In this document: piece after piece, positions 6,125-45,499 of the stretch
How the letters are laid out: each line of letters opens with the position of its first letter
How positions within the stretch are numbered: the stretch's first letter is position 1
NCBI RefSeq assembly: GCF_000423485.1
Contig: NZ_AUIB01000005.1
Span: 62,001-126,000 of the forward strand
DNA: 64,000 bases
Source of the DNA: Propionimicrobium lymphophilum DSM 4903
GTDB lineage: Bacteria > Actinomycetota > Actinomycetes > Propionibacteriales > Propionibacteriaceae
Reading direction: 5' to 3'
Notes under the pieces: model-generated
What the model saw: the letters and a program-made list of their open reading frames with translations, nothing else
The model's database searches: none
What the model was told of the DNA's origin: nothing
Position numbers and translations under genes: made by a program

Positions 6125-6745
6125 TCAGTTGTCCTCGGTTCCTTCTTGCTTGTCAGCCTCGGTCTTCGGCTCTTCAGCCTGCGATTCCTCAGCCTTATCC
6201 TCTTCCGCTTCGCCGGTTGGCATGGCAACAACAACCCTGGCCGGACGAACCGTCTGACCGTTGATCTGGTAGCCAACCTGCATGACCTCGTGAATTGTCG
6301 GCTCGCCGGTGCCGGCGACGGGCTGCTGCATCAGAGCCTCGTGGATCAACGGATTGAACTCTTCGCCGACCTCGCCAACCTTAACCATGCCGTACTGACG
6401 GGCAACCTTGATGAACTCGTCCGCGGTCAGTTTGAAGCCATCGCTCAGGTGCCCCATGTTCTGGGCCGCAACGATCGAGTCGAAGGCAGGCATCAAGTCG
6501 CGAAGCACAGCATCAATTCCGGACTGCCTGGCAAGCGGGCGGTCGCGGTCGACGCGCTTCTTGTAGTTGACGTACTCGGCCTGCAAACGCTGCAGGTCCT
6601 CCGTGCGTTCGGCAAGCTGCTTCTTCAACTCGGCGACCTCGTCGACGCTCGCGTCAGCATCTGGCGAAGCCTGTTGCGCCGCCTCCCCTGCCTGAGCCTC
6701 GGGATCCGGGGCCTGGTCGGCGACTGTCTTGTCTACCTCACTCAT
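6125..6745 (-). CDS. grpE: Nucleotide exchange factor GrpE
   Basis: GrpE releases ADP from DnaK to reset the chaperone cycle. I chose the internal start giving MSEVDKTV (206 aa) because GGA lies about 8 nt upstream. An upstream in-frame start would add 28 residues unlike GrpE. The acidic N-terminus leads into a long coiled coil (about 45-85, VAELKKQLAERTEDLQRLQ..YVNYKKR). The conserved beta-wing block follows: LMPAFDSI, the region from VKVGEVGEEFNPLIHEAL, and YQINGQTVRPARVVVA. The C-terminal tail is strongly acidic. It lies between dnaK and dnaJ. Confidence 0.94.
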   Translation of the reverse strand: MSEVDKTVADQAPDPEAQAGEAAQQASPDADASVDEVAELKKQLAERTEDLQRLQAEYVNYKKRVDRDRPLARQSGIDAVLRDLMPAFDSIVAAQNMGHLSDGFKLTADEFIKVARQYGMVKVGEVGEEFNPLIHEALMQQPVAGTGEPTIHEVMQVGYQINGQTVRPARVVVAMPTGEAEEDKAEESQAEEPKTEADKQEGTEDN

Positions 6746-8843: not shown

Positions 8844-9076
8844 TTTTGTATTTCATCGTCGTTTGAGACCAAGCCCGAGTACGCAGACAAGTGGATGGGC
8901 ATCGTCCACGACTTCACCGAAGCAACCCGCAAGGAGCCGGCCCGCACGTCAACAGCGCCTATTTCAAGAAGGCTATGGAAGACATGCGCCCTGTGATCGT
9001 CGCCACCCCGAAGATCGTCAGCCGCCAGGTCGAAGGCGAAGGCTGGGACGAAATGGGCGAGCTAAAAATCGACTAA
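8844..9076 (+). pseudogene. Antibiotic biosynthesis monooxygenase (YgiN-type) pseudogene
   Basis: Two fragments of one small monooxygenase are readable in different frames. The first is FETKPEYADKWMGIVHDF followed by TEATRKEP (from 8862). The second is HVNSAYFKKAMEDMRPVI, continuing through ATPKIV to GWDEMGELKID (to 9076). In intact family members the intervening segment, roughly 25-30 residues around CLFFEWSRS and DEAG, joins them. Here it is missing and the reading frame is lost. No convincing start codon or ribosome site remains. This is a decayed gene with an internal frameshifting deletion. Confidence 0.7.
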
Positions 9077-9125
9077 TCCTTTTCTTAGATTCATCTGAGC
9101 AGACGCGATTATCGGGAACCGGAAA

Positions 9126-9302
9126 GTTCGTAGTTGAGCTTTTTGGTTCCCGTTAAATTTTGACGTGTTAGCGGGGATGAAAAAGTTCATAGTCGGACTT
9201 TTTGGTTCTTGTTAATTCGTCAGGAATCAACGAGTGCAGAAAAGCTCGAGTACGGATTTTTCGGTTCCCGATGTTTCGGCGACGTGCTGATCGGTTTAAG
9301 CG
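9126..9302. repeat. Three-unit degenerate tandem repeat with 59-bp period (array A)
   Basis: Units begin at 9126, 9185 and 9244, exactly 59 bp apart. They share the core GTTCGTAGTCGAGCTTTTT then GGTTCCCGTTAAAT, with a later block GAATCAACG. The second array at 45185-45361 has the same core and period. Unit 1 also makes an inverted repeat with upstream sequence (CGGGAACC at about 9116 with GGTTCCCG ending about 9153). No coding potential is evident. Confidence 0.7.
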
Positions 9303-9416
9303 CACACGGCTGCTGGCCTGGGTTGGCTTATTAAGTGGTCTCAACATTACTGCGGCAGATTTGGCTCGTAGACGAGCCCTTTTTGACGCAATAATTCGGA
9401 TGACCACCTAAAGGAA

Positions 9417-9549
9417 TGAGGTTGTGGGAGTTCGGGTCTTTGAAGGAACATCAAGGCGTGGCGAGAGCGACGACATTCAAACGCGAACGCGTTTGAATCA
9501 GGAGCGAAGACACGTAGCCAGTGACGCAAAGACCCGAATCCCACAACCG
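9417..9549 (+). repeat. 133-bp terminal-inverted-repeat element, copy 1
   Basis: The ends are GGTTGTGGGAGTTCGGGTC with TTTG, and the reverse complement of that arm with a one-base indel. Internally, 9475-9498 is a perfect hairpin (ATTCAAACGC-GAAC-GCGTTTGAAT). The element is 97-98% identical to 45367-45499 (three substitutions) in the same orientation. It contains no credible gene. It could be a miniature mobile element or a structured RNA. The rest of 9077-9647 holds only array A and unassigned sequence. Confidence 0.8.
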
Positions 9550-9647
9550 TCGAAAAGTAACCAGACCAGCAACCGACCTAACCTGAACAGGCCGACCGCT
9601 TCGGAACAAGAAACCCGGCAAATAAACCCGTCACTTATGCAAGAGCA

Positions 9648-11339
9648 CTACAGATCTATCGGGGACGCGAATTTTAAATCGCCGCTGACGATCGGCACGT
9701 CGGCGTTCAGAGTTTCGTAGAGGGGACGATAGTCGGCGTGCTCGTCAAGGCCGAGGATTCCGACCCACGCGGGAACAACCTGGTGGGCGTAATACTTGTG
9801 CCCGTAGCCGGGGCCGACGCTACGGCACGACGTCATATCGGCGGCTACCTGCCAGAAGGTGATGAACGGCATCCACGTCATGTCGGCCATCGCGGAGCCA
9901 GGCCTAGGCTTGGCTAGCCAAGACGGTTTCTCGTAGAGCAGCCGCGAATTCCAGTAGACAACCGGGTCGGTGTCATTTTGCAGAAAGCAGAAACGCGGCG
10001 ATTCCCACTCGTTAGACATTTGCAGGTCGGCGGATTTGGCTGCGAAGCGCACGTGCCGCCCACCGTCGTAGACGGGCACGACGACGTCTGAACCGCTATC
10101 GCGTGCTTCGATGAAACCCTTAGCCAGGGGCGTAAACTCTGGGCAGCCGAGCCACAGGCCACCGTCTGCACGGGCAAGCAGGTCATCGTAGCCATCGAAG
10201 ATTCCGCAGGAACCGTATGCGCCTAACGATTCGCCGTTAAGGTAGACCTTTGGCGGATTCGGAATATCGGCCAGACGCTTCTCGACGGCCTCGAAGAGCA
10301 GTTTCGACGCCTCGACCGGCGAAGACTTCGAGGTGAGCGTCGTCACCGCGGACGGCAGACCGGAATACTGCATTGCGATCAGTGTGCAGTCGCCGCGGGT
10401 GAGATATTCGAACGCGGACGCTGCCCACTCGTTGACGTTGCCGCGGCCGGTGGTGGTGACCAGCAGCAGGTTTGCACGGCTCCAGCCGTCCATGCGATCC
10501 ACCTCGGACAGCACGGCATCGACGGCTTCGTCGAGCGAGCGGCCGTTAAGGGATGCATACGCGCGGATCGGCTCGTCGACGGCCTCTCCCATCACTCGCT
10601 CGATCTTTTCCGCGGTGGTTTTGCCGCATACAAAACGCTTGCCCTGCAGTCCGAGTTGATCCCAGGACTCCAGGGAAAACGGGCTTCCTGAGCATAAGCG
10701 CGTCAAAGGCTGTTTTAGCTCTTCCGGCGCGCGCAGGTCGACGGCGGCGGATGCCGTTTTAGCCACGCTGGGCACAGCGCGCATGATCACCTGGTCGAGG
10801 ATCACCATGATCGTGGCTAGCGTGACGGCGGTGGCCGTCAGCCTGGAAAGCAGCCGCCAGACGTGACGCTGCGGGAACTGTCGGGAGATGAAATTGATGG
10901 CGCACATGGTTGCCCGCCACTGGCCATAAAGTATCGCGAAGGCTCCCGCTGCAGCCCCGGACGAACCAAACGCCCAACTGAGATTTGGGCCTTTCACTTT
11001 CGCCTTTTTGGCAGCCCGCCGTTGCCAGCGGATGCTCAGCAGCGGCACCCCGATCAGCCCGACCGCAGCAACCGCTCCCCCAGCGATCTGCGCGGTCAGC
11101 TTCATTTTCGGGCTGACGCGAGTCGCTAGCCCGGCGCGCTTGGCCAGGCTGTTGAGAATGTAGCTTGCCCACTTGCCGAGCTGAAACCCGCCAAGCGCAC
11201 CTATACCCGAGATCAGCCCCTGAAAGTACCAGGGCCTTGGCAGCAGGCTCGCGGTGAAGCTAGCCGCGTAGCCGGCGACACCACCGAGCGTCGGCAGGCT
11301 GACTGAGCCGGGCAGCACGCACCTAAACGGGGAAACCAT
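9648..11339 (-). CDS. Membrane-anchored alpha/beta-hydrolase (Abhydrolase_9 type)
   Basis: This 563-aa protein has an N-terminal membrane part (several hydrophobic segments within about residues 1-190) and a cytoplasmic or extracytoplasmic alpha/beta-hydrolase domain typical of actinobacteria. The nucleophile elbow is GESLGAYGS (near residue 370), followed by ADGGLWLGCPEFTPL, DPVVYWNSRLL, MTWMPFITFWQVAADM and a late GHKYY histidine. Its substrate is unknown in this family. A -10 like TAGGCT lies 6 nt before the ATG on the minus strand, consistent with a leaderless transcript and supporting this start. It sits beside repeats and a pseudogene, in an accessory stretch. Confidence 0.85.
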   Translation of the reverse strand: MVSPFRCVLPGSVSLPTLGGVAGYAASFTASLLPRPWYFQGLISGIGALGGFQLGKWASYILNSLAKRAGLATRVSPKMKLTAQIAGGAVAAVGLIGVPLLSIRWQRRAAKKAKVKGPNLSWAFGSSGAAAGAFAILYGQWRATMCAINFISRQFPQRHVWRLLSRLTATAVTLATIMVILDQVIMRAVPSVAKTASAAVDLRAPEELKQPLTRLCSGSPFSLESWDQLGLQGKRFVCGKTTAEKIERVMGEAVDEPIRAYASLNGRSLDEAVDAVLSEVDRMDGWSRANLLLVTTTGRGNVNEWAASAFEYLTRGDCTLIAMQYSGLPSAVTTLTSKSSPVEASKLLFEAVEKRLADIPNPPKVYLNGESLGAYGSCGIFDGYDDLLARADGGLWLGCPEFTPLAKGFIEARDSGSDVVVPVYDGGRHVRFAAKSADLQMSNEWESPRFCFLQNDTDPVVYWNSRLLYEKPSWLAKPRPGSAMADMTWMPFITFWQVAADMTSCRSVGPGYGHKYYAHQVVPAWVGILGLDEHADYRPLYETLNADVPIVSGDLKFASPIDL

Positions 11340-44947: not shown

Positions 44948-45008
44948 CCGACGTATTCCTCACCGATCGTTCTGTTTCTGGTTCGGCTGCTTCTGGGCGG
45001 CTGCTGGT

Positions 45009-45116
45009 CTGGCTTAGTTTGTCGAGCGAGTCGCCGTGTCTACGTTAATCTCTTATCGCTTGCGCGATATCGAGATTTCACTCTCGCCACGCCTCGATGC
45101 TCTCCAAACCAACCCA
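45009..45116 (-). repeat. Diverged third copy of the inverted-repeat element
   Basis: Read on the minus strand, the ends CTGGGTTGGTTTG and the reverse complement of CTGGCTTAGTTTG are near-matching inverted repeats. Inside lies GAGGCGTGGCGAGAG, also present in the two 133-bp copies. A hairpin follows at 45047-45077 (outer AATCTC/GAGATT, inner ATCGC/GCGAT) capped by GCAA. Arm sequences differ from the other copies but keep pairing. Confidence 0.6.
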
Positions 45117-45184
45117 GCCCAGCATCCTCGCTGTTAAAAGTGGGCACCGAGTTGGGCGTCGTCGAGATTAGTGAGGAAGAAAAT

Positions 45185-45361
45185 GTTCGTAGTCGAGCTT
45201 TTTGGTTCCCGTTAAATCTTGGCGAATCAACGTGGAGGAAATTGTTCGACGTCGAGCCTTATCGTTCCCGTTAAATCCTCAGAAATCATCGCGGAAGAAA
45301 AAGTCCGACGTCGAATCTTTTTCTCCTCGCTATCTCCAGATGAGCCAAGGTGGGCACCTAT
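45185..45361. repeat. Three-unit degenerate tandem repeat with 59-bp period (array B)
   Basis: Units begin at 45185, 45244 and 45303, exactly 59 bp apart, and match array A at 9126-9302. B1 is nearly identical to A1 over its first 33 bp. It lies just before the 133-bp element, as at the first locus. The 44948-45623 gap contains only these repeats and the permease terminator. Confidence 0.7.
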
Positions 45362-45366
45362 TTAGC

Positions 45367-45499
45367 TGAGGTTGTGGGAGTTCGGGTCTTTGAAGGAACA
45401 TCAAGGCGTGGCGAGAGCGACGACATTCAAACGCGAAAGCGTTTGAATCAGGAGCGGAGACACGTAGCCAGTGACGCAAAGACCTGAATCCCACAACCG
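45367..45499 (+). repeat. 133-bp terminal-inverted-repeat element, copy 2
   Basis: It is identical to 9417-9549 except for three substitutions. One changes the internal loop from GAAC to GAAA (hairpin 45425-45448). Another turns a G-C pair of the terminal stem into a G-T (G-U in RNA) pair. Orientation is the same as copy 1. Confidence 0.8.

Follow-up and report, generated by a model that had tools for sequence, protein, structure and literature searches.

A genome-specific family of composite palindromic repeats in Propionimicrobium lymphophilum

The BOX, RUP and SPRITE elements carry a variable number of internal modules, have no dedicated transposase and are thought to be parasitic (PMC3049150). 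In a survey of REP sequences, GTAG repeats were found only in Proteobacteria, Cyanobacteria, Chloroflexi and the PVC group (PMC3733652). Here we describe a previously undescribed family of composite palindromic repeats from the genome of Propionimicrobium lymphophilum DSM 4903 (2.04 Mb, 26 contigs), beginning with a window of 64,000 nucleotides (contig NZ_AUIB01000005.1, positions 62,001 to 126,000 of the forward strand). The 133-bp sequence that we call module A probably belongs to a small interspersed repeat of the BOX/REP/MITE kind that is modular, non-autonomous and specific to its lineage.

Two copies of module A lie in the window, both on the forward strand, at 9417-9549 (W1) and 45367-45499 (W2). 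Direct comparison of the two copies confirms that they are 98% identical and differ at three sites, namely the loop (GAAC in copy 1, GAAA in copy 2), GCGAAGAC against GCGGAGAC, and the right arm (CCC against CCT), where the change in copy 2 retains a G-U pair. The terminal arms of 22 bp, which also hold one bulged G, and the internal 10-bp hairpin likewise proved real. Copy 1 consists of an outer-stem left arm (9420-9442, including the bulged G), the left core GGCGTGGCGAGAGCGA (9455-9470), an apical 10-bp hairpin (9475-9498, loop GAAC at 9485-9488), the right core GCGAAGACACG (9504-9514) and an outer-stem right arm (9527-9548), all on the forward strand. It folds at -64.8 kcal/mol, compared with a mean of -34.6 for shuffled sequences (z = -9.8), and the opposite strand is nearly as stable (-62.7 kcal/mol). 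Open reading frames drawn across copy 1 by a mechanical scan (e.g. 9424-9720) are unsupported. A 97-aa open frame at 8863-9156, between the HSP70 gene and copy 1, resembles a degraded gene fragment.

The preliminary description counted two copies. Both are genuine, but the count is incomplete: blastn against the whole genome identified 12 full copies of module A plus fragments. A weak match further revealed module B, which occurs at 9 loci in the same genome; its outer stem (GCTGGGTTGG.../...CAACCCAACCCAG) is unlike that of A and its core is the same. Module C, with a single example (C3 at 71.2 kb), has a third outer stem around this core. In all three modules the core consists of GGCGTGGCGRRAGYGA, a hairpin and then CGNAGACACG. 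The window contains one module B at 45000-45131 on the reverse strand, inverted relative to A, with its core at 45078-45093 (reverse strand). A covariance model of the core returned 24 matches in its own genome (E from 6e-17 to 0.004), the weakest of which are truncated by contig ends.

Across A, B and C, 26 of 85 alignment columns are invariant despite completely different outer stems and apical hairpins. These invariant bases, including a GRRA/GNA internal loop, suggest a function beyond that of a mere palindrome. The core helix may be read as CGUG/CACG, a G.A mismatch, a C-G pair, the GRRA/GNA internal loop and GY/RC, and its G.A pairs could be of the sheared type. In two B copies, the G.A mismatch is replaced by U-A. 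The last pair of GY/RC (columns 25/62) is C-G in 10 of 16 sequences, U-A in 5 and C-A in 1.

Modules A and B are paired at 8 loci (W2; C3 at 21, 43, 47 and 51 kb; C1 at 49 kb; the contig ends of C12 and C13), with B on the left in reverse orientation and A on the right in forward orientation in every one. Since A and B share their core in opposite orientation, the composite is a large quasi-palindrome of a few hundred bases. The interval between them holds one of two structures. One is a P hairpin, in which TTAAGTGGTC...GACCACCTAA encloses the terminator-like GGCTCGTAGACGAGCC with a T run after it; the other is a series of 59-nt H hairpins in tandem, with the pattern GGGAACC..GTTCGTAGTCGAAC..GGTTCCCG. 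Outside B there are GCTGG-rich repeats and outside A their complement, with H hairpins further out; 29 H-type hairpins (≤3 mismatches) were counted genome-wide.

At copy 2, three tandem 59-nt H hairpin repeats (45175-45351, forward strand) separate B from A. Beside copy 1, only a remnant arm of B is present (9308-9326, reverse strand), where GGCTGCTGGCCTGGGTTGG is fused directly to CTTATTAAGTGG and the remainder of B is missing. It is followed by a P hairpin (TTAAGTGGTC..GACCACCTAA; 9328-9411, forward strand) with the terminator-like GGCTCGTAGACGAGCC-CTTTTT at 9363-9383, and tandem H hairpins (GGGAACC..GTTCGTAGTTGAGC..GGTTCCCG) occupy 9113-9290 on the forward strand upstream. Each of the 59-nt tandem repeats at 9116-9233 and 45175-45351 forms one hairpin, whose loop carries GTAG, CATAG or ACGT.

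The loci vary in whether B, A or both are present, and A-only copies still have a GGTG..CAC-type sequence upstream at similar spacing. The 133-bp unit is not a free-standing element: module A is one part of a larger composite with B, as even A-only copies keep the upstream sequence and the order with B is fixed. The modules have also been shuffled. Copies 1 and 2 of A are 98% identical in different surroundings, the P hairpin of copy 1 matches that of C3 at 47 kb, whose A is another subtype, and distances among A and among B copies correlate weakly (Mantel r 0.48, p 0.054). Contigs C4, C9, C12 and C13 terminate inside B, as expected of a repeat that breaks assembly. At C3:21.5 kb (L052, ~6500-6530), a run of 10 Ns accompanies a duplicated stretch of A and its upstream P hairpin, which probably reflects a gap left by scaffolding across the repeat and not a true tandem copy.

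The 12 copies of A allowed the structure to be assessed by comparison. In the outer stem, 19 of 22 pairs are invariant and the arms are 99% paired. The apical hairpin is the covarying part: compensatory changes were found, with four pairs showing double changes in 12 cells, a score that none of 500 shuffles equalled. A GNRA tetraloop is not a conserved feature, as the loops in the 12-copy alignment read GAAC, GAAA, CAAA, CAAT, CTTT and TTGC. Among departures from Watson-Crick pairing on the forward strand, A-C is about as frequent as G-U, so neither strand is favoured. At C1:71 kb, the loop is inverted (CTTTG for CAAAG) relative to the hairpins at C13 and C3:64 kb. Template switching characteristically leaves inverted loops and compensatory changes of several bases (PMC8794818). 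Since this process yields the same pattern, structure-preserving change alone is not proof of RNA (PMC8794818). Of the interpretation put forward earlier, the dispersed family with a preserved hairpin structure is supported.

The family occupies about 15 loci, all of them intergenic. The flanking genes are unrelated housekeeping genes and include a dnaK-type HSP70, a DEAD-box/DUF3516 helicase, phoU, alanine racemase, a glutamyl/glutaminyl-tRNA synthetase, a phosphoglucosamine-mutase-like gene, a 2-oxoacid dehydrogenase E2 and a cobT-type transferase. By a simple ORF call, the 13 assignable gaps comprise 6 convergent, 6 tandem and 1 divergent, which places most of the elements at the 3' ends of genes. 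A scan scored the P and H hairpins as terminator-like, with three matches, barely above the shuffle mean of 1.6. No promoter-like site was found in two scanned regions. Seven of the 15 loci fall in a 50-kb stretch of contig C3, 33-83 kb from dnaA, a clustering reached in 1 of 200,000 random placements. H hairpins and modules are absent from ~64% of the genome, by a regional test that is post hoc and uses unordered contigs. The occupied ~36% comprises C3:9-72 kb, C1:47-250 kb, C4, C6, C9, C12 and C13; neither H hairpins nor A, B or C occur on C2 (465 kb), C5, C7, C8, C10, C11 or the far half of C1.

Outside this genome, module A was found in 0 of 57 relatives. The core covariance model, run with stricter filters, gave no match in three overlapping samples of other genomes: 198 from the family, 396 from the order and 394 from the class. 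Exact 23-mer scans of genome contigs and viral contigs were equally negative. Phages and plasmids gave no match to the element, and an origin from phage, plasmid or virus was rejected on these grounds. A degenerate core pattern matched only twice, in a chance-like manner, across 84,980 species. These two matches, in Sphingomonas (L065) and Chloroflexi (L066), were read as chance, as they score 18-21 bits and have no outer stem, compared with 56-92 bits for intact own copies, leaving out contig ends and the shortest B variants. The Sphingomonas match also lies in an intergenic CGCGAAGACACGAAG-type tandem repeat (L065:2350-2550) that has the motif CGAAGACACG in common with the core, probably by coincidence. 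Rfam gave only tRNAs at gathering scores and far sub-threshold chance matches at the element, in agreement with the initial statement that no named family fits. Contigs C21 and C22 have neither an ORF nor an Rfam match; the small contigs C23-C26 consist of N and were set aside.

The recent mobility proposed in the preliminary description is unsupported: neither a transposase with matching ends nor a visible target duplication was found, and no relative offers an empty site. At the 12 A copies, whose flanks are varied, no target-site duplication was visible by eye, with no empty sites for comparison. An insertion-sequence end was rejected, because whole-genome blastn returns element copies and fragments only; a 367-kb scan (≤4 mismatches; a few short contigs unreadable) detected no paired ends elsewhere. 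A RAYT/REPIN system was rejected, since the Y1 transposase (PF01797) has 0 matches in this genome and the controls were positive. Integron attC sites were considered and dropped because the arm polarity was judged wrong and the neighbours are housekeeping genes. It is the dispersal of the composite that suggests it has been mobile.

One possible explanation is a structured RNA family, in which the common core on a long outer stem would be a protein- or RNA-binding element in 3' UTRs. The 26 of 85 columns kept under differing stems, the exchange of C-G (10/16) for U-A (5/16) at columns 25/62, the U-A that replaces G.A in two B copies and the covariation of the apical hairpin all speak for it. 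However, the wobble bias towards G-U that an RNA should show on its own strand is not seen; the family is missing from every relative, unlike most functional RNAs; the two scanned regions contain no promoter-like site; and the loops are not conserved. We therefore consider this explanation unlikely.

If the 22-bp outer arms of A were transposase sites, the element would be a classical TIR-type MITE of a DDE insertion sequence, which would account for arms that are near-invariant over 12 copies and for homology between copies 1 and 2 that ends within a few bases of the arms, beyond which the flanks differ. This is improbable given that no insertion sequence or TIR-only copy has these ends, that the arms of B and C are unrelated while the core is the same, that no target duplication is seen, and that A keeps its spacing to the upstream hairpin sequence and a fixed order with B. 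The concentration of 7 of 15 loci in 50 kb near dnaA (1/200,000 in simulations), together with related H hairpins that avoid the same 64% of the genome, could instead point to a chromosome-organisation site (nucleoid, segregation or topoisomerase binding) concentrated to one side of oriC. We regard such a role as very improbable: the loci lie on one side only, the family is missing from relatives, the clustering is explained equally well by local spreading or conversion, and the contigs are unordered.

We then propose a model in which module A is part of a small interspersed repeat. A composite unit of B (reverse), P or H hairpins and A (forward) would have reached about 15 intergenic sites, most of them at the 3' ends of genes, and its copies have diverged and swapped modules. 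The spread most likely took place at the DNA level, through a trans-acting (or lost) transposase or through recombination or gene conversion between copies. The arms are probably held complementary by template switching or by gene conversion acting on the palindrome, and selection on the folded form may also help to maintain their pairing. Read-through transcripts would carry the hairpins in their 3' UTRs, where intrinsic termination is a plausible role for the P and H hairpins.

With 12 A and 9 B modules, the family permits tests of structure, and the two readings of covariation, RNA selection and template switching, are separable within one genome. The core kept unchanged beneath three unrelated outer stems offers a concrete candidate binding motif that can be tested, and its invariance is the single feature that could raise the family above an ordinary repeat. 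A speculative and rather doubtful idea is that a host protein binds the A/B/C core, which, with its GRRA/GNA internal loop between two short helices, would represent a new structured RNA or single-stranded-DNA motif. Outer stem and apical hairpin could then change freely provided that they still pair, and one core, re-dressed with at least three stems, would work in divergent pairs.

The family combines traits of several known systems. Like Correia elements and MITEs (~100-160 bp, dispersed, with long terminal inverted repeats), module A has 22-bp arms; unlike them, it shows no target duplication, no parental insertion-sequence ends were found, it is not AT-rich and its composite context is fixed. 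REP, BIME and REPIN sequences are also small palindromes with complementary stem variation that are mostly intergenic and often lie between convergent genes (PMC3733652). With GTAG in their loops, the H and P hairpins recall the GTAG/CGTC-tagged REPs (PMC3733652). However, module A is 133 bp instead of 20-40 nt and lacks a terminal GTAG tag, and the genome has no Y1/RAYT gene. In kind, the family resembles BOX of Streptococcus pneumoniae (boxA-boxB-boxC), RUP and SPRITE, which are composite, modular, strongly folding, intergenic and clustered (PMC3049150); here, too, an array of P or H hairpins lies between B and A at intergenic sites and the module content varies. It differs from BOX, which is streptococcal and, judged by description, unrelated in sequence, in that two related modules with a common core face each other in inverted orientation and the family is confined to part of one chromosome.
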